From: Parvularcula mediterranea
GTDB taxonomy: Bacteria; Pseudomonadota; Alphaproteobacteria; Caulobacterales; Parvularculaceae
NCBI RefSeq assembly: GCF_013085255.1
Contig: NZ_JABFCX010000003.1
Location: forward strand, 1 to 64,000
Reading direction: 5' to 3'
Length of the DNA stretch: 64,000 bases
Shown here piece after piece: positions 1 to 17,738 of this stretch (positions within the stretch are counted from its first letter, which is position 1; every line of letters starts with the position of its first letter). The notes below the pieces were generated by a model. That model was not told the origin of the DNA. It did no database searches and saw only the letters and a program-made list of their open reading frames with translations. The position numbers and the translations under genes were made by a program.

Positions 1-2719
1 CGAACGGCCGTGACCTGACGGTTGAGGGCTTGGTTGTTGATGGTGAGTTTGTTGTTGCTGGGTCTAATTCGACGTCTGTTTTGGGTCTGCGTGGTACGCA
101 GGAGCTTTCGGGTTCTGGCCGGGTTCTTTTGTCTGGTGAGAACGCTGTTGGCGGTGTTGCCCGGAACGTTCTTCAGCTGACCTCGACGTCGAATGCGCGT
201 GAGGAGCTGACCATTGGCTCGGATATTGTTGTCGAGGGCTGGGGGTCTGTGTCGGCCAACGGCAATGACGACACGATCCGGTTCGAGGGTTTGGCCAAGG
301 GCTCTTCGGAAGGCCCGCTGACGCTGTTCGATATCGACAACACCCAAGGGGACGGCTCGGCGGGTGCCTTGCGTGTGGACAGCTCCGAAGGGGTTGTTGC
401 GGTTGGCCAGAGCGCCCGGATCATCGGTGCGGACTTTGTGGGTGAAGCGGGTACGGACGGTATCCTCGAGTTCTTCGCCAGCGCGGTCCTCGAAGAGGTC
501 TCGCTGTCGATGGACAGCCTTCTGGACGGCACCACCCAATCGAGGACGGTGTTCGTCCAGGAAGGGCTGGCGCTTGATGGCAGCCTCGAGATCAGGGGCA
601 CCCAGTCGCGGACCACGGAGTTCCGCTTCCAGGGCGAGCAGGAGATCTCAGGCACAGGCGAGATCGTCCTGACCGATGGCGGCGTGGGGGATGCTGATCC
701 CCTGAGCTACCTTGCGATCCAGGGGGTGACCGGTGCGTCGGAGATCCTGACCATCGGCGAGGACATCACGGTGAGGGGCGAGGGGTGGATCTTCTCGCGC
801 TCGACGAACGACCTCTTCGCCATTGATGGCAGGGTCGTGGCCGAAGGCGGCAGGCTGCGCATCGAGGACACGGCCTCGGTGAACGGCGAGGTGGGCGCGC
901 TTGCGGGCGGTCTCCTCGAGATGCGCCAGGCTGATCTTCTCACGGAGCAATCAAAGCTGGTGATCGGCCTTGATGGTGCAGGGGATGACGCTGCGGCGGG
1001 CCTTGTGACCATCCGTCAGGCGATCACCCTTGAGGGTATCTTAAAGCTCGAAGTGGGCGACGGGTTCGCAGCCGAGCTTGGCGACAGCTTTGTCATCGCA
1101 AGGGAGGACTTCAACGTCACCAATGGCGAGGCGTTCGCAGGAGCCTTTGACGGCTTTGAAGGCTTCGACCTTGAGGGCGACCTTGCCTTCCGGCTCGTGA
1201 GGAGCACGGATCCTGAGAACAGCTCGATCCAGACGCTGGTCCTCGAAGTGGTGGAAGACGCCACGGCCGAGGCTGGCGGCTTCATCGGAGCGGGCTCTGT
1301 CTTCACCCCGCCGGACCTGCCTGCAGAGGGCACGCGGGTGGAGATCACCCTTGATGAGATCGGCGGCCGGGTGGCTGACAGCGAGATCACGGGGACGACC
1401 ACGGATGGTCTTTCGAGGGTCGAGGTGACCAACACGCTGGCGGTGCTCGAGAACGTGGCCTTGGGCGTCGACCTTGGGGTGGATGCTGCGAACGGCACCC
1501 GGCGTGTGGACATCGAGCAGGGGCTGACCTTTGCGAACGGTGCCCAGATCATCCTCGAGGACAGCGAGAACGGTGTGGCGGAAGCGCGCTTCTTCGGTAC
1601 CCAGACGGTGGACGGCGAAGGCGGCATCTTCATGAGCCGGGTCAATGCCAACGTCCTTGGCATCGAGTCGGAGATCGAGTTCGTCAACACGCTGTCAGGC
1701 GCAAGGGAGCTTCTGACCTTCGGTGAGGATGTGACCATCTCTGGCGATGGCCGTGTCTTTGCCAATGGCTTCGAAGACCGGATCCGGATCCTCGGCGAGG
1801 TTGTGGGTACGCCTGAGAACCTTCTCGAGATCGAGGATCTCGACAATGGCGGTGCGACCTTGATGGTCGATGCCTCGGCTGGCCGTGTGGCTGTGGACGA
1901 TGTGGTGGAGAACACCCGCTTCGAGGGGACAGGGGAGCTTGAGCTCTTCGATGGCAGCTACCGGAACGTCAGCTTCGGCATGGATGCCCGCTTCGGCGGT
2001 GTGGCCTCAGGTGGCCAGACCCTGACGGTGGAGGAGGGCCTTGAGGTCGACAGTCTCCTCACCGTGGAGGCTCCGACCGGGGGCACCCGGTTCCTGACCG
2101 CGCTTGGCGAGCAGAGCCTTGTGGGGACGGGCGAGATCGTCCTCTCCGGCGATGAGACGTCGGAAGGCCAGGCGCAGAACTATCTCGACTTCAACGGCAC
2201 GCTGGTGCGGGCGGAGACCTTGGTGATCGGTCCTGACCTGACGGTGAGGGGCGAGGGCCATATCCGTGCGATCGATGCCGATGACCTGGTGGATATCCAG
2301 GGTACGCTGATCGTCGAGGGCCTCTTCGAGGTCGAGGACCTGGCGGACTTTGGCGGCACCCTGGAGATCGCAAGGACGGGCACCCTCGAGGTCGAGGACC
2401 GGTTCAACGAGCTTCGTGAGCTGACCCTGACGGGGGATGCCCAAGTGACGATCGCGCTCGGCGGCTCAGGGCTTGATGCCCGTGCCGGCCAGATCGTGAT
2501 CTTCGGCGAGGCCGCCCTTGCAGGCACCCTGACCCTCGACGTCGAGGCAGGCTTCACAGGCGAGATCGGCGACGAGTTCGTCATCGCCTCGGCAAGGGAC
2601 GGCTTCGCCTCCGTCTTCGACGCCATCGAAGGCTTCGACATAGACGGAGACGACAAAGCCCTAGCCCTCGTCCAGGACGATACAACACTGTCGGTGAGGA
2701 TCGTCAGCCAGGATGAGGC
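1..2719 (+). repeat. Long intragenic direct repeat, copy 1
   Basis: Positions 1-2719 match 3469-6187 at a constant offset of 3,468 bp. In the parts I compared the copies are identical up to about 2290. From 2291 on they differ by scattered single bases, all of which I read as synonymous, and similarity stops abruptly after the shared 'gatgaggc' ending at 2719. The unit continues upstream of the window. Confidence 0.92.
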
Positions 2720-5700
2720 AGGCTCGTTCTTCCTCAGGAGCCAACTGCCGCCGGACCCGGTCCTGCCGGAGCTTTCGGGCACCTTTACCGGCGTCATCGA
2801 CGATGCGCTGGCAGGTGGCCCGCTGGCGCAGGTGGACGACAGCGGCGCGACCTTCAACAGTGTCGATCTGCAAACGGATGTTCTCATCCAGACCGATGAT
2901 GACGGCTTCTTCCGGCAAGGGTTTCTTCAGGTCAGCGACGGCCTGACCCTCACGGGTGCCGACATCACGCTGGAGTCAACGCCTAGCGACCGTGCCTATC
3001 TTCTCTTCAATGGTCCGCAAACGGTTTCTGGTACTGGGGAGATCGTGCTCTCCGAGACGAATGGTACGCCATTCCGTCCAGTGACGAACTGGGTCGGCTT
3101 CTCCGGCTCTGACTTCAATGCGCCCGAAACGCTGACGTTCGATGTGGTCGTCCGCGGCGCGGGTTCGATCTTCACGAACAGCGCGCAGGACCGCTTCCAG
3201 TTCCTCGATGAAGTGATTGCGGAAGGCGGTAGGCTGACGATCTCCTACATCAACAATGGTGGAGAGACGCTGGTCGTCAGCGAGCAACTAGGTGGTGAGC
3301 TGATCATCCAGTCGGCAATTGAAGACACTGTTCTGTCACCGACAGCCGGAACCGTCGTCGAGATTGCTTCGGCGACCATCCGCGATCTTGAAGTGGCTGG
3401 TGAAGGTGCCGTCGATATCCGATCGAGCAGCGCCGAAGGCATTCTTGTCACGGGCAACGCCATCCTCACGAACGGCCGTGACCTGACGGTTGAGGGCTTG
3501 GTTGTTGATGGTGAGTTTGTTGTTGCTGGGTCTAATTCGACGTCTGTTTTGGGTCTGCGTGGTACGCAGGAGCTTTCGGGTTCTGGCCGGGTTCTTTTGT
3601 CTGGTGAGAACGCTGTTGGCGGTGTTGCCCGGAACGTTCTTCAGCTGACCTCGACGTCGAATGCGCGTGAGGAGCTGACCATTGGCTCGGATATTGTTGT
3701 CGAGGGCTGGGGGTCTGTGTCGGCCAACGGCAATGACGACACGATCCGGTTCGAGGGTTTGGCCAAGGGCTCTTCGGAAGGCCCGCTGACGCTGTTCGAT
3801 ATCGACAACACCCAAGGGGACGGCTCGGCGGGTGCCTTGCGTGTGGACAGCTCCGAAGGGGTTGTTGCGGTTGGCCAGAGCGCCCGGATCATCGGTGCGG
3901 ACTTTGTGGGTGAAGCGGGTACGGACGGTATCCTCGAGTTCTTCGCCAGCGCGGTCCTCGAAGAGGTCTCGCTGTCGATGGACAGCCTTCTGGACGGCAC
4001 CACCCAATCGAGGACGGTGTTCGTCCAGGAAGGGCTGGCGCTTGATGGCAGCCTCGAGATCAGGGGCACCCAGTCGCGGACCACGGAGTTCCGCTTCCAG
4101 GGCGAGCAGGAGATCTCAGGCACAGGCGAGATCGTCCTGACCGATGGCGGCGTGGGGGATGCTGATCCCCTGAGCTACCTTGCGATCCAGGGGGTGACCG
4201 GTGCGTCGGAGATCCTGACCATCGGCGAGGACATCACGGTGAGGGGCGAGGGGTGGATCTTCTCGCGCTCGACGAACGACCTCTTCGCCATTGATGGCAG
4301 GGTCGTGGCCGAAGGCGGCAGGCTGCGCATCGAGGACACGGCCTCGGTGAACGGCGAGGTGGGCGCGCTTGCGGGCGGTCTCCTCGAGATGCGCCAGGCT
4401 GATCTTCTCACGGAGCAATCAAAGCTGGTGATCGGCCTTGATGGTGCAGGGGATGACGCTGCGGCGGGCCTTGTGACCATCCGTCAGGCGATCACCCTTG
4501 AGGGTATCTTAAAGCTCGAAGTGGGCGACGGGTTCGCAGCCGAGCTTGGCGACAGCTTTGTCATCGCAAGGGAGGACTTCAACGTCACCAATGGCGAGGC
4601 GTTCGCAGGAGCCTTTGACGGCTTTGAAGGCTTCGACCTTGAGGGCGACCTTGCCTTCCGGCTCGTGAGGAGCACGGATCCTGAGAACAGCTCGATCCAG
4701 ACGCTGGTCCTCGAAGTGGTGGAAGACGCCACGGCCGAGGCTGGCGGCTTCATCGGAGCGGGCTCTGTCTTCACCCCGCCGGACCTGCCTGCAGAGGGCA
4801 CGCGGGTGGAGATCACCCTTGATGAGATCGGCGGCCGGGTGGCTGACAGCGAGATCACGGGGACGACCACGGATGGTCTTTCGAGGGTCGAGGTGACCAA
4901 CACGCTGGCGGTGCTCGAGAACGTGGCCTTGGGCGTCGACCTTGGGGTGGATGCTGCGAACGGCACCCGGCGTGTGGACATCGAGCAGGGGCTGACCTTT
5001 GCGAACGGTGCCCAGATCATCCTCGAGGACAGCGAGAACGGTGTGGCGGAAGCGCGCTTCTTCGGTACCCAGACGGTGGACGGCGAAGGCGGCATCTTCA
5101 TGAGCCGGGTCAATGCCAACGTCCTTGGCATCGAGTCGGAGATCGAGTTCGTCAACACGCTGTCAGGCGCAAGGGAGCTTCTGACCTTCGGTGAGGATGT
5201 GACCATCTCTGGCGATGGCCGTGTCTTTGCCAATGGCTTCGAAGACCGGATCCGGATCCTCGGCGAGGTTGTGGGTACGCCTGAGAACCTTCTCGAGATC
5301 GAGGATCTCGACAATGGCGGTGCGACCTTGATGGTCGATGCCTCGGCTGGCCGTGTGGCTGTGGACGATGTGGTGGAGAACACCCGCTTCGAGGGGACAG
5401 GGGAGCTTGAGCTCTTCGATGGCAGCTACCGGAACGTCAGCTTCGGCATGGATGCCCGCTTCGGCGGTGTGGCCTCAGGTGGCCAGACCCTGACGGTGGA
5501 GGAGGGCCTTGAGGTCGACAGTCTCCTCACCGTGGAGGCTCCGACCGGGGGCACCCGGTTCCTGACCGCGCTTGGCGAGCAGAGCCTTGTGGGGACGGGC
5601 GAGATCGTCCTCTCCGGCGATGAGACGTCGGAAGGCCAGGCGCAGAACTATCTCGACTTCAACGGCACGCTGGTGCGGGCGGAGACCTTGGTGATCGGTC

Positions 5701-8546
5701 CTGACCTGACGGTGAGGGGCGAGGGCCATATCCGTGCGATCGATGCCGATGACCTGGTCGATATCCAGGGTACGCTGATCGTCGAGGGCCTCTTCGAGGT
5801 CGAGGACCTGGCGGACTTTGGCGGCACCTTGGAGATTGCAAGGACGGGCACCCTCGAGGTCGAGGACCGGTTCAACGAGCTTCGTGAGCTGACCCTGACG
5901 GGGGATGCGCAAGTGACGATCGCGCTCGGGGGCTCAGGGCTTGATGCCCGGGCCGGCCAGATCGTGATCTTCGGCGAGGCCGCCCTTGCAGGCACCCTGA
6001 CCCTCGACGTCGAGGCAGGCTTCACAGGCGAGATCGGCGACGAGTTCGTCATCGCCTCAGCCAGGGACGGCTTCGCCTCCGTCTTCGACGCCATCGAAGG
6101 CTTCGACATAGACGGAGACGACAAAGCCCTAGCCCTCGTCCAAGACGATACAACTCTCTCCGTCAGAATCGTCAGCCAGGATGAGGCGAACACGATCATT
6201 CAGCGTGAAGATCTTCCTGCTGACCCGGTCCTCCCGGAAGTGAATGGGACGATCACCGGGGTCCTCAACGAAGCCGCTGCCGGTGGGCCGCTGGTTCGTG
6301 TGGATGATTCCACGGCTACGTTCGACGACGTCACGCTCGAGGTCGATGTGAATGTGACCGCCGCCGAAGATTCCTTCTTCCGGTCGGCGTTCCTTCAGGT
6401 CACCAACGGCCTGACGATCAATGACCAGACCATCTCGGCGGTCCCGGGAGAAGGTGACCGCTCCTGGGTCTACTTCATCGGAGAGCAGACTGTCGACGGA
6501 ACCGGGACGATTGTTCTCAACGATCGCCCGGACACGCCGTTCATCACGGAATCGGCGTTGCTGGAGTTCGATGGACAGGACTTCGGAACGGCCCAGACGC
6601 TGACCCTCGCAGCGGGTATCGATATCCGCGGCAGTGGTGATGTGTTCACGGACGAAGCCGAGGACCGCTTTGACATTGCGGGCGACGTGACCGCCGTTGG
6701 CGGCCGCCTCGATCTCTCCAACGTCGACAATGACGGCGGCATGCTCAACCTCTTCGAGGATGTCGGCGGCCAACTGGTGCTTGGCGGGACCATCGACAAC
6801 ACGGTCCTCAACCCCGCATCGGGCGTTGAGGTGGACGTGCAGGCGACCCTCAACGACGTGACGGTTGCGGGCGCTGGTTCGGTGGACTTCCAGACGGGCG
6901 CGGTCCACACCAACCTGAGTATCGATGGCAAAGCCACGATCGGCCAAGGGCGAGACCTCAATGTCGTCGGCCTTGACCTTGATGGCCTCCTGACGATCAG
7001 CGGTTCGAATTCGGTTTCTGCTCTCAACCTTCGCGGCGAGCAGACGTTCACTGGCACTGGCCGTGTGCTGATGACCACTGACGGTGCGGTGAACGGAACG
7101 GCGTTGAACTACATCCAGCTCGTATCTCTCTCGGGCGATGCCGAGGTGCTGACCATCGACAGCGGTCTCACGATCGAAGGGCCGGGCCTCGTCTTCGCCA
7201 ACAGCACAGGCGATAGCATTGTCTTCGATGCCCTCGCGAAGGGCGCGGCCGGTGGTGTGCTCAAGCTGGGTAACATCGACAACACCGATGGCGGCGGCGA
7301 TCGCGGAATCCTCCGCGTCGATGCTTCGGCGGGCGAAGTCGGAGCAGCCGAAAGCCGCTTCCTCCGCGGTGTCGATGTGACGAGCGAGGCCGGTGCGCCG
7401 GGCGTGTTCTCCCTCTTCTCGGGCGCCAACCTCGACTTCGTGGCGTTCACCATGGATGCCGAGCTCGACGCTCGCGAGGTGAGCAAGACCGTCTTTATAC
7501 AGAACGGCCTTGACGTTGCCTCGACCTTGACGGTGACCGGGACCAATATCCGGACCGGGGAGCTGCGCTTCCAAGGGGAGCAGGAGCTTGGCGGCGGCGG
7601 TGAGATCATCCTTGTAGACGGTGGTGTCTCGGTCAATCAGCCTGCGACATATCTCACCATACAGGGCCTGACCGCCGATGCAGAAGTGCTGACGCTGGCC
7701 GAAGGGACGACCGTTCGAGGCGTGGGTTGGCTCTTCTCGCGGTCGACGAACGATCTCTTCGCTTTCGATGGCAGAGTTGTCGCTGACGGCGGATTGCTCC
7801 GTGTCGAAGACACCACTTCTGTCGATGGCGAAGTCGGCGCTCTGGCAGGAAGCACGCTGGAGATCCGTCAGGGTAATCTCCTCACGGAGCAATCGAAGCT
7901 CGTCGTGGGCCTCGAAGGAGCGGGCGATGATGCGGAAGCGGGGCTCGTGACGATCACGCAGGTCCTGACGCTCGAAGGCATCCTCAAGCTGGAAGTCGGT
8001 GACGGGTTCTCGGCAGAGCTGGGCGATACATTCGTGATCGCGAGAGAGAACACGAACATCACCAACGGCGAAGCCTTTGTCGGCTCATTCGATGGCTACG
8101 AAGGCTTCGATCTCGAGGGTGATCTCGCGTTCCGCCTTGTTCAATCGACCGACCCCGAGAACTCCAGCATCGAGACGCTGGTCCTCGAGGTCGTCAATGA
8201 CGCAGCTGCAGAAGCAGAGGGCTTCATCGGTGATGATGCGGCTTTCATCCCGCCAGCAACGTCAGGCATCGAGAGCTCGTCCGTGCCGAGCGGTGACGCC
8301 GGCAAGGCCGTCAGCTCCTTCGCCGTCATCGACGATGTGCAGGACGCGATGGAGACGGGGCCGCTGTTCGAGAAACCGCTTCCGCAGTTCAACACTGGCG
8401 ATCCAACCGAACCGCCAGCGACGGAAGCTCTTGCGGACCTCGTGCGCGAGAATGACGCATTCCTGCATGACGACATTGCGATCGAGGCGGCAGAGCAGGC
8501 TCTCGTCCAACAGCTTCAGTTCCTTGAGGACCAACACGGCTTCTAG
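1..8546 (+). CDS. Giant acidic repetitive exoprotein, 5' end missing
   Basis: The reading frame is already open at the left edge: codons from position 3 give NGRDLTVEG, identical to an internal segment near 3471, so the true start is upstream. At least 2,847 residues are present, very rich in Gly, Asp, Glu, Val and Thr. Short motifs recur every 20-40 residues, such as 'GEQ-x-GTGEIVL' and 'LTIG-x-DITVRGEG', as expected for a right-handed beta-helix or filamentous-haemagglutinin-like stalk. A 1,156-residue unit (3,468 bp) occurs twice almost perfectly, followed by a diverged partial third copy. The last ~100 residues are a non-repetitive acidic tail. I see no C-terminal autotransporter barrel and no RTX nonapeptides, so the export route is unknown. 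An adhesin or surface-layer role is an inference from composition. Codon use differs between segments of the repeat. Confidence 0.8.
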   Translation, partial: NGRDLTVEGLVVDGEFVVAGSNSTSVLGLRGTQELSGSGRVLLSGENAVGGVARNVLQLTSTSNAREELTIGSDIVVEGWGSVSANGNDDTIRFEGLAKGSSEGPLTLFDIDNTQGDGSAGALRVDSSEGVVAVGQSARIIGADFVGEAGTDGILEFFASAVLEEVSLSMDSLLDGTTQSRTVFVQEGLALDGSLEIRGTQSRTTEFRFQGEQEISGTGEIVLTDGGVGDADPLSYLAIQGVTGASEILTIGEDITVRGEGWIFSRSTNDLFAIDGRVVAEGGRLRIEDTASVNGEVGALAGGLLEMRQADLLTEQSKLVIGLDGAGDDAAAGLVTIRQAITLEGILKLEVGDGFAAELGDSFVIAREDFNVTNGEAFAGAFDGFEGFDLEGDLAFRLVRSTDPENSSIQTLVLEVVEDATAEAGGFIGAGSVFTPPDLPAEGTRVEITLDEIGGRVADSEITGTTTDGLSRVEVTNTLAVLENVALGVDLGVDAANGTRRVDIEQGLTFANGAQIILEDSENGVAEARFFGTQTVDGEGGIFMSRVNANVLGIESEIEFVNTLSGARELLTFGEDVTISGDGRVFANGFEDRIRILGEVVGTPENLLEIEDLDNGGATLMVDASAGRVAVDDVVENTRFEGTGELELFDGSYRNVSFGMDARFGGVASGGQTLTVEEGLEVDSLLTVEAPTGGTRFLTALGEQSLVGTGEIVLSGDETSEGQAQNYLDFNGTLVRAETLVIGPDLTVRGEGHIRAIDADDLVDIQGTLIVEGLFEVEDLADFGGTLEIARTGTLEVEDRFNELRELTLTGDAQVTIALGGSGLDARAGQIVIFGEAALAGTLTLDVEAGFTGEIGDEFVIASARDGFASVFDAIEGFDIDGDDKALALVQDDTTLSVRIVSQDEAGSFFLRSQLPPDPVLPELSGTFTGVIDDALAGGPLAQVDDSGATFNSVDLQTDVLIQTDDDGFFRQGFLQVSDGLTLTGADITLESTPSDRAYLLFNGPQTVSGTGEIVLSETNGTPFRPVTNWVGFSGSDFNAPETLTFDVVVRGAGSIFTNSAQDRFQFLDEVIAEGGRLTISYINNGGETLVVSEQLGGELIIQSAIEDTVLSPTAGTVVEIASATIRDLEVAGEGAVDIRSSSAEGILVTGNAILTNGRDLTVEGLVVDGEFVVAGSNSTSVLGLRGTQELSGSGRVLLSGENAVGGVARNVLQLTSTSNAREELTIGSDIVVEGWGSVSANGNDDTIRFEGLAKGSSEGPLTLFDIDNTQGDGSAGALRVDSSEGVVAVGQSARIIGADFVGEAGTDGILEFFASAVLEEVSLSMDSLLDGTTQSRTVFVQEGLALDGSLEIRGTQSRTTEFRFQGEQEISGTGEIVLTDGGVGDADPLSYLAIQGVTGASEILTIGEDITVRGEGWIFSRSTNDLFAIDGRVVAEGGRLRIEDTASVNGEVGALAGGLLEMRQADLLTEQSKLVIGLDGAGDDAAAGLVTIRQAITLEGILKLEVGDGFAAELGDSFVIAREDFNVTNGEAFAGAFDGFEGFDLEGDLAFRLVRSTDPENSSIQTLVLEVVEDATAEAGGFIGAGSVFTPPDLPAEGTRVEITLDEIGGRVADSEITGTTTDGLSRVEVTNTLAVLENVALGVDLGVDAANGTRRVDIEQGLTFANGAQIILEDSENGVAEARFFGTQTVDGEGGIFMSRVNANVLGIESEIEFVNTLSGARELLTFGEDVTISGDGRVFANGFEDRIRILGEVVGTPENLLEIEDLDNGGATLMVDASAGRVAVDDVVENTRFEGTGELELFDGSYRNVSFGMDARFGGVASGGQTLTVEEGLEVDSLLTVEAPTGGTRFLTALGEQSLVGTGEIVLSGDETSEGQAQNYLDFNGTLVRAETLVIGPDLTVRGEGHIRAIDADDLVDIQGTLIVEGLFEVEDLADFGGTLEIARTGTLEVEDRFNELRELTLTGDAQVTIALGGSGLDARAGQIVIFGEAALAGTLTLDVEAGFTGEIGDEFVIASARDGFASVFDAIEGFDIDGDDKALALVQDDTTLSVRIVSQDEANTIIQREDLPADPVLPEVNGTITGVLNEAAAGGPLVRVDDSTATFDDVTLEVDVNVTAAEDSFFRSAFLQVTNGLTINDQTISAVPGEGDRSWVYFIGEQTVDGTGTIVLNDRPDTPFITESALLEFDGQDFGTAQTLTLAAGIDIRGSGDVFTDEAEDRFDIAGDVTAVGGRLDLSNVDNDGGMLNLFEDVGGQLVLGGTIDNTVLNPASGVEVDVQATLNDVTVAGAGSVDFQTGAVHTNLSIDGKATIGQGRDLNVVGLDLDGLLTISGSNSVSALNLRGEQTFTGTGRVLMTTDGAVNGTALNYIQLVSLSGDAEVLTIDSGLTIEGPGLVFANSTGDSIVFDALAKGAAGGVLKLGNIDNTDGGGDRGILRVDASAGEVGAAESRFLRGVDVTSEAGAPGVFSLFSGANLDFVAFTMDAELDAREVSKTVFIQNGLDVASTLTVTGTNIRTGELRFQGEQELGGGGEIILVDGGVSVNQPATYLTIQGLTADAEVLTLAEGTTVRGVGWLFSRSTNDLFAFDGRVVADGGLLRVEDTTSVDGEVGALAGSTLEIRQGNLLTEQSKLVVGLEGAGDDAEAGLVTITQVLTLEGILKLEVGDGFSAELGDTFVIARENTNITNGEAFVGSFDGYEGFDLEGDLAFRLVQSTDPENSSIETLVLEVVNDAAAEAEGFIGDDAAFIPPATSGIESSSVPSGDAGKAVSSFAVIDDVQDAMETGPLFEKPLPQFNTGDPTEPPATEALADLVRENDAFLHDDIAIEAAEQALVQQLQFLEDQHGF
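2720..3468 (+). repeat. Spacer module of the giant gene, diverged copy 1
   Basis: This segment separates the two near-identical blocks. Its protein (DPVLPE, then a region with AGGPL and VDDS) is clearly homologous to that encoded by about 6188-6935, but the two have diverged extensively at protein and DNA level. The spacer has therefore not been homogenised in the way its flanks have. Confidence 0.7.
3469..6187 (+). repeat. Long intragenic direct repeat, copy 2
   Basis: This is the second copy of the block at 1-2719. Differences from copy 1 cluster in its last ~430 bp, for example 5759 C against 2291 G (GTC/GTG), then changes such as ACC-TTG for ACC-CTG and TCA-GCC for TCG-GCA. All those I checked leave the protein unchanged. 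Confidence 0.92.
6936..8260 (+). repeat. Diverged third partial copy of the repeat unit
   Basis: The protein from about GRDLNVVGLDLDG to FIPP aligns with the first ~440 residues of the 1,156-residue unit. It shares LTEQSKLV, GLEGAGDDA and STDPENSSI blocks, but the DNA is much less similar and uses C-ending codons throughout. It ends the repetitive part; the acidic tail follows. Confidence 0.75.
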
Positions 8547-8583: not shown

Positions 8584-8670
8584 CTTCATCTGGGCGGCGT
8601 GTTCGTCTAGGAACCCTCGAAAGGCCGGGTGCTGGCAGGACGCCGCGCCCCTTCAGTCGAGGAGTACCCC

Positions 8671-11145
8671 ATGACCTTCCGCCTTCCCCCCTCCATGTCG
8701 ATCCGTTCCGCTGCGCTGCTCTTTGCGGCAACCGGCGCGCTTGGCACTGCATTCGCGCAGGACGTGCCGATCGTGCAGCCCGGTGCCCCAGGGCAGGATG
8801 CCCGCGAGCTGAGCGCCGATGAAGCGGTCAAGGTCGCCAGCAACAAATACTCCCCGGACGATGTTCGGTTCATGCAAGGCATGATCCCGCACCACGCGCA
8901 GGCCGTGGAGATGGCAGAGCTCGTTCCCGACCGCTCAAACAATGAAGAGATCGGCGACATCGCCGGACGCATCCTGAAAGCGCAAGCCGACGAGATTGCC
9001 TTCATGCGCCAGTGGCTGGCCGATCGCGGCGAGCCGATGATGGCCAAGAAAGGCCACATGCATCACGGCATGTCCCATGAGATGATGGGCATGGCGACGC
9101 CCAAGGAAATGCGCGCGCTCAAGCGTGCCAAGGGCACGGACTTTGACCGTATGTTCCTTGAGCTGATGATCGAGCACCATGAGGGCGCGATCAGGATGGT
9201 GCGAGACCTCCACGACCAGCCGGGCTCTGCGTACGATCCGGTGCTGTTCGATTTCTCCAACGATATCGTCAATGATCAGCGTGCTGAGATCACGCGCATG
9301 AACGCGATCCTTGCTGGCCTCTCGGAGGATCCGCGTGTCGGTCTTAACCCGGGTCTGGCGGATGCAGGTTCGGCGATCAGCAATCTCACACTCGTTGCGA
9401 GCCTGGAGAAGCCGAGGGGCTTCTTTGATCCTGAGAACCCGGCGGGCCTTCCCCCGGTGATCGAGCCCGATGAACCTGAAGCCTCCGAAGAAGAGGCCGA
9501 GGGCGAACAGAGTGACGAGGAAGCACCCGTCCGCACGGCAGAAGACAATGCCGATGCGAAGACGGAGTGGGGCGAGCGCTGGCCGCTGTTGAGCTTTTGG
9601 AACACCGACATGGCGTTCTCTGGCGACAAGATGATCGCCGGTAATTATCACGGCTTCAACGTCTACGAGCTCGATGGCGAGGGTATGCCCACCCTCTATT
9701 CGTCCGTGGTCTGCCCGGGTGGTCAGGGTGACGTTTCGATCGTCGGCGATCTCCTCGTGATGTCGGTCGAACAGACGCGCGGCCGTGTTGACTGCGGCCT
9801 CGAAGGCATTGCCGAGGACGTCAGCGAGGACCGCTTCCGGGGCTTGCGGATCTTCGACATCAGCGATCTCAAGCGTCCCCGCCAGGTCGGTATCGTCCAG
9901 ACTTGCCGCGGCTCGCACACCCACTCGATCGTATCGGCCGACGACGAGCGGATCGTTGTCTACAACTCGGGCACCTCGTCCATCCGTGATGGCGAAGAGC
10001 TTGAAGGCTGCGTCGGCGGCGTTCCCGGTGACGATCGCACGGCGCTCTTCCGCATTGATGTGATCGAGATCCCTGTGGCTGACCCCTCCAAGGCCCGCAT
10101 CGTGTCGAGCCCGGGCGTCTTCGCAGATGCTGAAACGGGCCGTCTTGCCGGTCTCTGGCAGGGCGGCGACCACGGCGATGATACCCAGTCGACGCGGCGT
10201 ACGGACCAATGCCATGACATCACGATCTTCCCGGAAGCGAAGATCGCTGCGGGCGCGTGCTCCGGCAACGGCATCATCCTCGATATTGCTGATCCGCTGA
10301 ACCCGGTGCGGATCGACGATGTGACGGACAAGGGCTTTGCCTACTGGCACTCGGCGACCTTCAACAATGACGGAACGAAAGTTCTCTTCACGGACGAGTG
10401 GGGCGGCGGAACGCAGCCGCGCTGCCGTGCTTCGGACCCCAAGACGTGGGGCGCCAACGCGATCTACGACATCGTCGATGGAAAGCTCGAGTTCGCGAGC
10501 TACTATAAAATCGACGCTCCGCAGGCTGACCAAGAGAACTGCGTCGCGCACAATGGCTCGGTGATCCCGGTTCCAGGCCGCGATATCTTCGCGCAAGCGT
10601 GGTACCAAGGCGGTCTTTCTGTGATCGACTTTACCGACTCAAGCGAGCCGCAGGAAATTGCGTTCTTCGACCGTGGTCCGATCCATGAGGAGCGGATGGT
10701 CGTTGGCGGTTACTGGTCGACCTACTGGTACAACGGCAAAATTTACGGGACTGAGATCGTCCGTGGTCTGGATGTTCTGTCGCTCGAGGCGAGCGAGCAC
10801 ATGACGGAGAACGAAATCGCAGCGGCCGCGATGGCGGACATGGGCGACACCTTCAATCCGCAGCAGCAATACACGGTCAGCTGGCCCAACCACCCGGTCG
10901 TGGCGAAGGCTTATCTTGACCAGCTGGAGCGCGATGGCGGCATGCGCAGAGACGCGATCTCGTCGATCCGTGCACTGCTTGACCAGTCAGAGTCCCTTCT
11001 CGATGCGGAGGGCGAGGACACGACCGTTGCGGACAGCCTCGTCAAAGCTGCTGAGGGCATCAAGATGACCCGCCGTAACGCGCAGGCCAATGCACGGCTG
11101 AACGCGCTTTCGGACCAGCTCCGCGGCATCGCAGAGCTGATCTGA
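8671..11145 (+). CDS. Exported DUF305 and LVIVD beta-propeller fusion protein
   Basis: The ATG at 8671 has AGGAG 6 bases upstream and opens a signal peptide (cleavage expected after AFA, about residue 29); the in-frame GTG at 8629 would spoil it. Residues ~50-220 form a DUF305 four-helix region with the family's paired histidines (IPHHAQ near 73, EHHEGA near 168) and a His/Met-rich loop (HMHHGMSHEMMGM). An acidic linker (~255-290) leads to a long beta-propeller of the LVIVD-repeat type (~300-720), then a helical tail. Propeller histidines fall at about 415, 417, 514, 560 and 627 in conserved-looking turns, suggesting a metal site, which is inference. DUF305 proteins are often found with copper-handling genes, and a blue-copper gene lies tail-to-tail downstream. 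The substrate is unknown. Confidence 0.8.
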   Translation: MTFRLPPSMSIRSAALLFAATGALGTAFAQDVPIVQPGAPGQDARELSADEAVKVASNKYSPDDVRFMQGMIPHHAQAVEMAELVPDRSNNEEIGDIAGRILKAQADEIAFMRQWLADRGEPMMAKKGHMHHGMSHEMMGMATPKEMRALKRAKGTDFDRMFLELMIEHHEGAIRMVRDLHDQPGSAYDPVLFDFSNDIVNDQRAEITRMNAILAGLSEDPRVGLNPGLADAGSAISNLTLVASLEKPRGFFDPENPAGLPPVIEPDEPEASEEEAEGEQSDEEAPVRTAEDNADAKTEWGERWPLLSFWNTDMAFSGDKMIAGNYHGFNVYELDGEGMPTLYSSVVCPGGQGDVSIVGDLLVMSVEQTRGRVDCGLEGIAEDVSEDRFRGLRIFDISDLKRPRQVGIVQTCRGSHTHSIVSADDERIVVYNSGTSSIRDGEELEGCVGGVPGDDRTALFRIDVIEIPVADPSKARIVSSPGVFADAETGRLAGLWQGGDHGDDTQSTRRTDQCHDITIFPEAKIAAGACSGNGIILDIADPLNPVRIDDVTDKGFAYWHSATFNNDGTKVLFTDEWGGGTQPRCRASDPKTWGANAIYDIVDGKLEFASYYKIDAPQADQENCVAHNGSVIPVPGRDIFAQAWYQGGLSVIDFTDSSEPQEIAFFDRGPIHEERMVVGGYWSTYWYNGKIYGTEIVRGLDVLSLEASEHMTENEIAAAAMADMGDTFNPQQQYTVSWPNHPVVAKAYLDQLERDGGMRRDAISSIRALLDQSESLLDAEGEDTTVADSLVKAAEGIKMTRRNAQANARLNALSDQLRGIAELI

Positions 11146-15704: not shown

Positions 15705-15851
15705 CGCCGGGCCACCTTCCGGACCATCCAGCCGATAAGCCATTGTAAATGAACGCGCTGCCATTCTGGCGTGCGGCGCTGCTTCGCGGCCCTATAATTG
15801 GGCCATGGAACGAAATGCGACCGTCATCCGCAAACGCTTTGGCGCTGCCTT

Positions 15852-17738
15852 GTGAGCCAGGCCCGTCAGTATAAGGCGTTTATCTCCTACGCGCACAAGG
15901 ACAAGCGCGAGGCGCAGTCTCTTCACTTGCGTCTTGAAACCTTCCGTACGCCCAAGAACATCATTGGGACGGAGGGACGTTTCGGCCCGGTCGAGCGGCG
16001 GCTGACGCCAGTCTTTCGTGACCGGGATGAGCTATCCTCGTCGAGCGAACTCGCCCCTGCGTTGGAAGAAGCGCTCACCAACTCCGAGTTCCTGATCGTC
16101 CTCTGCTCCCCGGCCTCTGCGAACTCCGTCTGGGCCAATGAAGAGATCCGCCGGTATCGCTCAATCCATGGTGATGAGCGCGTGCTTGCTGCTATCGTCG
16201 GCGGTGATCCGGGTGCGGAGGTTGGTGAGGGCAAGCCAGGATGCTTCCCGCCAGCGCTGGTCGCGCCACCTGAGGGATCTGACAAGCCGAGAGAGCCCAT
16301 CGCCGCCGATTTCCGGCCTGAGGGCGACGGCCGTAAGCTGGCGTTCCAGAAGCTCGCTTCCGGGATGCTCGGCGTCGGCCTTGATCAGCTTACGCAGCGA
16401 ATGGCCCAGCGAAGGCAGCGCCGGATGGCACAGGCTGCGGGTCTCATGGGCGTCCTTTCCGTCGCTATGGGCGGGCTTGCGGTCTACGCTTTTCAGCAAG
16501 AGGCACTCGCTGAGGAGCAGCAGGCTATAGCCGAGCGAGAACGGGACATCGCCAACGCGTCGTCTGAATTCCTCGTTTCTATCTTCGAGGTCGCCAACCC
16601 GGCCACGGAGAACCCCAAAACGATCACTGCACTGACCGTCATCGAGAGAGGCTTTGCCAGAATAGACGAAGCTTTCGCGGAGCAACCAGAGGTCCAGGCA
16701 AAGCTCTTGGCGGACCTCGGGCGGGTCTACGCCAGTCTTGGCGAAATCGACACCGCCAAGGACGCTCTCAACCGGGCTATCGCGGCGCCTGGCGTATCCG
16801 TTCAGGACAGGCTCGCCGCATCGACGCGACTTGCCAACCTCCTCTATCTCACCAACAGCAACGAAGAGGCGTCGGCCCTTGCGGGCCGCGTTCTCGAGGA
16901 GCTTGACGGGTCAGGGTACGATGCCGACGACCGACATCTTATCGGCGGCGAGGCACTCGAAGTTCTCGCAAACATTGCTGCGTACAGAGATTATGACAAG
17001 CAGGCTGGCATCGACCGAATGCTTCAGGCAATCGACCACTACACGCTCTCAGGAGAGGGGGGAACCCGGCAGCTCGCAAGAGCGCAGACCCAGCTAGGTA
17101 CAATGTATTCGTATGCGGACGAAAGTGATCTAGCCATCGATTACCTCTCCCGAGCGATCACCAATCTTGAGCGCTTTCACGGTCCCAACCACATCAACGT
17201 CGCGAACGGCATTCAGAACCGCGGACTCGTCGAGTTTCGTGCAGGTCGTACAGAGCAGGCCGCCCGGAGCATTGAGGAGGCTTTGGTCACTTACAACCGG
17301 GTGCTTGAGCCATCCCACCCGAACCTCGCTCGGACACACTTGCTACACGGACGAATTCTCGCGGCCTCTGGCAACTTTGCAGGATCCGAGGAGGCCATGC
17401 GTAAGGCTATCGCGGGGTTCGAAGCTGCATACGGACCGAACCACGAGGAGATAGCGATAACGAGAATCTACCTAGGACAATTCCAGGCTAATGAAGGCCT
17501 CATCGAGGATGCTTTCGCCAGCTTTGATGAAGCCAAGAGCATATACGACACTCTCTTTCCTCCTGATCATGCCAATCATGGAGACCTTCTGGTTTACCGT
17601 GCCATTGCCATCAACGCATCCGGCGATAAGACTGCAGCGCTTGAAGCTTGTGATGCAGGTCTCGAAATCATGCGAGCAACTGTTCCCCAAGGTGATGCTT
17701 GGCTTGAGGAAAATGAGGCGATCTGCGAAGACTTTTAA
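15852..17738 (+). CDS. TIR domain protein with membrane anchor and TPR repeats
   Basis: I start at the GTG at 15852 (SQARQYKAFISYAHKD); the longer frame from TTG 15798 adds an unlikely leader, and neither start has a convincing ribosome site. Residues ~7-125 are a TIR domain: FISYAHKDK, the BB-loop region FRDRDELSSSSELAPALEEAL, then IVLCSPASANSVWANEEI, whose Glu after Trp is the candidate catalytic residue of TIR NADases. A basic stretch (MAQRRQRR) and one transmembrane segment (~194-213) follow. The C-terminal ~400 residues are helical repeats of the TPR type. The region after the membrane helix (EFLVSIFEVANP through QPEVQAKLLADLGRVY) resembles the TPR part of Ser/Thr-kinase-TPR receptors, with TIR taking the kinase's place. 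Function unknown: defence effector or envelope sensor. Confidence 0.8.
   Translation: MSQARQYKAFISYAHKDKREAQSLHLRLETFRTPKNIIGTEGRFGPVERRLTPVFRDRDELSSSSELAPALEEALTNSEFLIVLCSPASANSVWANEEIRRYRSIHGDERVLAAIVGGDPGAEVGEGKPGCFPPALVAPPEGSDKPREPIAADFRPEGDGRKLAFQKLASGMLGVGLDQLTQRMAQRRQRRMAQAAGLMGVLSVAMGGLAVYAFQQEALAEEQQAIAERERDIANASSEFLVSIFEVANPATENPKTITALTVIERGFARIDEAFAEQPEVQAKLLADLGRVYASLGEIDTAKDALNRAIAAPGVSVQDRLAASTRLANLLYLTNSNEEASALAGRVLEELDGSGYDADDRHLIGGEALEVLANIAAYRDYDKQAGIDRMLQAIDHYTLSGEGGTRQLARAQTQLGTMYSYADESDLAIDYLSRAITNLERFHGPNHINVANGIQNRGLVEFRAGRTEQAARSIEEALVTYNRVLEPSHPNLARTHLLHGRILAASGNFAGSEEAMRKAIAGFEAAYGPNHEEIAITRIYLGQFQANEGLIEDAFASFDEAKSIYDTLFPPDHANHGDLLVYRAIAINASGDKTAALEACDAGLEIMRATVPQGDAWLEENEAICEDF

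Follow-up and report, generated by a model that had tools for sequence, protein, structure and literature searches.

The window, by which we mean the whole stretch of 64,000 nucleotides analysed, comprises bases 1-64000 of contig C2 (1,367,241 b) of the Parvularcula mediterranea assembly, and window base 1 is base 1 of that contig. It opens inside a giant gene whose upstream part is found at the far end of contig C2. Window 1-5756 recurs without a difference as the final 5,756 b of the contig, and the frame read across this overlap is open from L006:6584 to window position 8546, encoding 5,382 aa; the start codon of this frame was chosen, and the open frame extends 150 b further upstream. Blastp self-comparison of the protein in chunks, from aa 2,200 on, gave the module order C0-A1-B1-C1-A2-B2-C2-A3, with module names assigned in this analysis and one of the comparisons taking matches longer than 60 aa. 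There was no third B after A3. C1 and C2 denote modules below unless the word contig precedes them. The features are as follows.

L006:6584-14186 (contig C2:1353883-1361485), at the far end of contig C2: 5' part of the giant frame, from the upstream frame and the exact overlap
3-8546, + strand: 3' part of the giant frame, open throughout, 2,847 codons
1-2290, + strand: block R copy 1 (A1 and most of B1), from contig base 1, 0 differences to 3469-5758
2291-2720, + strand: shoulder copy 1 (end of B1), 15 silent differences, 0 replacement
2721-3463, + strand: diverged module C1 between the blocks, aa identity 43% to C2 (dS 1.36) and 37% to C0 (dS 2.25)
3464-5758, + strand: block R copy 2 (A2 and most of B2), 5 extra identical bases on the left
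5759-6188, + strand: shoulder copy 2, from comparison with shoulder copy 1
6189-6931, + strand: diverged module C2, from the module comparison
6932-8255, + strand: diverged third copy of module A (A3), from self-comparison, 49% then 80% aa identity to A1
8256-8546, + strand: C-terminal tail, following A3

Matches to cadherin, Big_5, LVIVD, Big_7 and other domains were seen in the N-terminal half, with scores above cut-off for Cadherin (70.2 bits), Big_5 (88.8 bits) and Big_7 (35.3 bits); this half therefore carries Ig-like and cadherin-like extender domains of the kind that mark giant adhesins. At E 0.01, neither Pfam nor NCBIfam families were matched in the window part (3-8546), and the C-terminal beta-barrel translocator of type V autotransporters had no match there. 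RTX nonapeptide repeats did not appear above cut-off: a HemolysinCabind match at aa 356-380 reached 17.6 bits against 23, and none fell in the window part. Since the search for RTX repeats gave none above cut-off, the protein was not filed as an RTX adhesin. No anchor or secretion signal was identified on the giant protein.

Divergently upstream of the giant gene lie genes for TolC-like, HlyD-type and PrtD-like ABC proteins, so that linked type I secretion genes (ABC, HlyD, TolC-like), a second mark of giant adhesins, are present. OEP, HlyD_3, ABC_tran and ABC_membrane matches in these neighbours exceeded Pfam cut-offs. The HlyD-type adaptor was the sole one of three NCBIfam secretion models above its cut-off (328.7 vs 208.65 bits); the TolC-like and PrtD-like proteins scored below theirs (135.9 vs 225.15 and 454.7 vs 510.15). 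The giant protein is probably secreted, and surface-exposed or in the matrix.

AlphaFold2 predicted module B (window 1278-2714, three-row alignment) as all-beta, with a mean pLDDT of 76.7 and a pTM of 0.80. The best PDB matches were beta-helices: a gut-metagenome beta-helix domain (E 1.1e-4) and pertactin (E 1.7e-4), then Ssp and antigen 43 (E 1.7e-3). TM-scores were 0.24-0.32 for the first three and rmsd was >13; agreement with beta-helices therefore holds only at the level of fold class. From this one modelled module, the C-terminal half is probably a stalk of beta-solenoid-like modules.

Directly downstream of the giant gene, window 8629-11145 matched DUF305 (159 bits) and, below cut-off, choice-of-anchor B (50.4 vs 100); its product is likely also exported. 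An open frame at 15798-17738 matched TIR_2 and ThsB_TIR ahead of TPR repeats, and possibly encodes a defence or signalling protein.

Relatives of the block protein were found in its own genome only (1 of 61 genomes), as were matches to a module profile (1 of 299 genomes in the order). A peptide scan of genome contigs, which perhaps left out near records, gave 98 pattern matches and 0 relatives. The N-terminal half had matches in 2 of 4 other genomes, of just 239 and 81 aa at 38 and 34% identity. Of the genomes searched, that of P. mediterranea alone has the array. Among the best 80 of 564 LexA matches to named records, a set that perhaps lacked near records, the top ones (71 and 70%) were MAGs of Parvularculaceae, which points to an alphaproteobacterium, perhaps from this family.

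Blocks, shoulder and module history

Base-by-base alignment of window 1-2290 with 3469-5758 found 0 differences at an offset of 3468, as the preliminary description had read from the letters. Between 1-2720 and 3469-6188 there were 15 single-base differences, all in 2291-2720 and all silent (copy 1 positions 2291, 2361, 2369, 2441, 2462, 2483, 2591, 2594, 2675, 2687, 2690, 2693, 2696, 2699 and 2720). That description also had the tract ending sharply at 2719/6187; the end is sharp, but the run stops at 2720/6188. Beyond 2721 identity dropped to 66, 54, 59 and 52% in successive 100-b bins, and lower after that. Both edges of the identical block were sharp. Set against the copy from the far end of the contig, copy 2 gains 5 b of identity on its left (3464-3468).

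Silent and replacement changes were counted separately. In the block (3-2288), no change was counted among 588 synonymous or 1,698 replacement sites. The shoulder (2289-2720) had 15 changes on 110 synonymous sites and none on 322 replacement sites, for a dS of 0.15, rising from 0.11 in its first half to 0.19 in its second. Were all sites equally liable to change, the chance that all 15 would be silent is ~1e-9, and the chance that all would fall within the last 144 of 906 codons is near 1e-12. The absence of replacement changes among the 15 agrees with the purifying selection proposed earlier for the tract edge, and the silent-only shoulder fits ordinary purifying selection with no special cause needed: zero replacement change has a chance of ~0.4 at an omega of 0.02, ~0.06 at 0.06 and ~0.01 at 0.1. 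Such a shoulder is unremarkable because strong constraint is normal at module ends, as the A1/A3 end illustrates. There (798-1313 vs 7740-8255) the last 172 aa are 80% identical, with a dN of 0.15 and saturated silent sites (pS 0.76); this module end is old and strongly constrained, whereas the start of A3 has kept far less identity (49%). Five successive codons in the shoulder are silently changed (P ~0.001, 100,000 random placements), a run that simple drift does not explain.

A shift in codon usage was seen at the left of the blocks. The first 70 codons of each (3-212 and 3471-3680) are 46% T-ending, above the maximum of 41% in 864 windows from 20 window genes and above that of 44% in 9,375 overlapping windows from 232 ORFs of 20 sampled stretches, a set picked with GC3 >0.65, which biases its T3 background low. 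The shift starts at the left edge of the block and fades within ~200 b, and it may stem from a foreign donor or an old junction.

The spacers following the blocks were strongly diverged, again as first described. C0, C1 and C2 have pairwise protein identities of 36-43% and dS values of 1.36-2.25, near silent-site saturation; the A-B-C unit was therefore duplicated long ago. Recent duplication of a whole unit was not seen, because no two of the three C modules are alike. Within a single gene, dS steps from 0 in the block to 0.15 in the shoulder and >1.3 in the C modules, a tidy record of layered homogenisation. The preliminary description had proposed gene conversion or unequal crossing-over acting on an older duplicate. 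Recent homogenisation of an old duplicate holds, given spacer dS of 1.36-2.25 against 0 in the block, but unequal crossing-over as the sole process, on a two-copy reading, does not: it would copy the spacer, and the three spacers are diverged.

These results suggest that the blocks are old duplicates recently homogenised, most simply by gene conversion. Under the mechanism we propose, the A-B-C unit (1,156 aa) would have been duplicated long ago and the A-B blocks homogenised later through intragenic recombination, with conversion limited to a 2.7-kb homology island between the diverged C modules. At least two rounds would be required, an older one across the whole ~2.7-kb island and a newer one across the left 2.3 kb.

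Contig break and repeat number

Contig C2 starts with the modules R-C1-R-C2 and ends with C0-R-C1-R. Since the contig end repeats window 1-5756, the locus is a contig break. The first base of the contig falls 5 b within the left edge of the identical block, and its last one 2 b short of the first difference. An end/start overlap of 5,756 b gives two copies of the block, and one of 2,288 b gives three. Module C1 adjoins the block at either side, so there must be at least two copies, and three or more fit as well; for the same reason a single true copy, the case that the preliminary description set against itself, is unlikely. Both copy number and perfect identity are provisional, because the contig breaks at the block edges.

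A second contig behaved alike. Contig C1 (1,726,715 b) has both its start and its end inside a TPR-coding array of 48-aa (144-bp) repeats, in one coding frame (L018:13237-15000 and L017:2-868). Its exact end/start overlaps are 88 and 232 b, and it ends 1-2 bases inside the branch points where copies of the 88-b string part. For each contig, the longer of its two possible overlaps exceeds the shorter by a single repeat period (144 and 3,468). An end overlap of this kind was looked for in the third contig and none was seen. The contigs look as if cut at repeat nodes of the assembly graph, and the number of TPR repeats in contig C1 is as provisional as the count of block R. Assembly collapse at repeats has been treated before (PMC6868369). 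The assembler may have removed isolated differences inside the block, and the perfect identity of the blocks may be partly owed to it; within the block, the trace of conversion looks no different from that of collapse.

The end of contig C1 overlaps its own start, as does that of contig C2, as if they were circles of 1.73 and 1.36 Mb. Two genomes of the same genus (G004 and G006) each consist of one contig, 3.1 and 2.9 Mb long. The contigs are either two replicons or one chromosome misresolved at another repeat. GC skew of 20 sampled stretches was without clear switch points marking replicons. The SSU rRNA family search was dropped as a clue to assembly type: it was blank in 10 of 10 genus genomes (G000-G009), single-contig ones included, and positive in 9 of 14 controls, so that the blank reflects a blind spot either of the search or of the data. 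Synteny was of no help as a test of contig closure. The genes lexA and trpC are common to the loci of G005, G003 and G001, and queries with the secretion genes and the giant gene had no match near them in G005 or G003 at E 1e-5; beyond lexA the stretch runs for ~36 kb (G005), 17 kb (G003) and just 3.4 kb (G001, to the contig end), so this absence holds for two genomes. The gene adjoining lexA in G005 had its best match on contig C1 of the source genome.

Weighing of the explanations

The reading we consider probable is that of a giant, probably type-I-secreted protein with a solenoid-like stalk, in which the A-B parts of old A-B-C duplicates were homogenised by intragenic recombination. That assembly collapse alone made the pattern is unlikely. 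The copies would then differ at isolated sites, overwritten by the assembler's consensus, and the shoulder would hold those differences that could be chained to unique flank. The ends of the contig, 2 and 5 b inside the block edges, fit such a collapse, as do the ends of the other large contig beside repeat branch points and the spacing of the 15 surviving differences, which never exceeds 108 b. If differences further left were as dense as in the shoulder (15 in 430 b), however, they too would have been chained to the edge and so remained visible, which argues for a block less diverged than its shoulder, and the spacers are far more diverged than either. The array might also be longer, with at least three DNA-identical A-B-C1 units made by unequal crossing-over and left unsplit by the assembler. 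This is possible, if somewhat doubtful, and it is compatible with homogenised old duplicates as preferred here. Three copies are as consistent with the 2,288-b overlap as two are with the 5,756-b overlap, high identity favours unequal exchange, and MpAFP provides a precedent (PMC3492233); no observation demands more than two copies, though, and C0, C1 and C2 as assembled all differ. Copy-number change at the array is a plausible candidate process. The stronger proposal of a length-variable array of at least three DNA-identical A-B-C solenoid units, in which cells of one strain would differ by 1,156-aa steps and the contig break would be the trace, we hold to be rather doubtful.

It is very improbable that the ends of contig C2 come from two different genes sharing R-C1-R. 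The single contigs of G004 and G006, against two self-overlapping contigs here, would suit two loci, yet the 5,756 b shared are identical with C1 included, the frame is coherent across the join, and a DNA search of the genome found the block elsewhere only as the diverged A3 and one 42-b match. We give similarly little credence to selection for differing codons between like modules, which would hinder recombination and leave a silent-only edge. The five successive silently changed codons are in its favour, as is the 80% protein identity of the A1 and A3 ends at a pS of 0.76. Shared codons at those ends nevertheless numbered 56 of 137 against 59.3 expected by random pairing, and the lowest P for a deficit among eight overlapping module comparisons was 0.15. 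Codon repulsion between repeats was rejected, as none of the eight gave evidence of it.

Comparison with known systems

The repeat is a real one in a real gene, and is of a familiar kind. The type I secreted RTX giant adhesins LapA and BapA were grouped with MpAFP for comparison. MpAFP is an ice-binding giant RTX adhesin of Marinomonas primoryensis with ~120 Ig-like units of 104 aa and type I (RTX) export; its tandem units are DNA-identical, are flanked by copies of only 41-63% identity and are ascribed to duplication and unequal recombination, and their number was of necessity an estimate by pulsed-field gel (PMC3492233). MpAFP is the nearest precedent. The present locus resembles it in having identical units beside diverged ones and type I secretion-like genes beside the giant gene. 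It differs in that the array has at least two blocks of ~906 aa in a 1,156-aa unit, appears solenoid-like, keeps its spacer unhomogenised and has no RTX match above cut-off. If a longer variable array were true, the 1,156-aa step would be ~10x that of MpAFP-type arrays, and a solenoid-type stalk beside type I secretion genes would have an unusually large length step.

Giant1-5 of Apilactobacillus kunkeei are very large extracellular beta-solenoid proteins with kilobase recombination tracts and local dS peaks (PMC12863079). The organism is Gram-positive and its tracts are inferred between strains, whereas those proposed here lie between modules of one gene. Beta-helical autotransporter passengers such as pertactin and antigen 43 share a fold class with the modelled module B; the low TM-scores, the lack of a translocator domain match and the type I secretion-like neighbours set the present protein apart from them.

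Periscope Proteins are surface proteins with long near-identical stalk repeats that fold individually and form a rod; intragenic recombination has been proposed for them, and between-strain length variation is central to the class; they include ShdA with its beta-helical PATR repeats (PMC8201768, PMC9704523). Short reads fail to resolve repeats of this type, according to one of these sources (PMC9704523). Copies 1 and 2 form a repeat of ~906 aa with 100% identical protein, and so a high-identity tandem repeat of >50 residues as in that class, subject to the caveat that the contig ends inside the block. The likeness extends to a probable surface-type protein with long identical stalk repeats, although the repeat here is very large and alternates with diverged modules. 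We stop short of a firm assignment to the Periscope Proteins, but the protein may well work like one. The locus clearly exemplifies a recognised difficulty: near-identical stalk repeats end contigs, so the repeat number and identity of giant surface proteins in draft genomes need checks against reads. The protein is probably a stalk like that of MpAFP or the Periscope Proteins.
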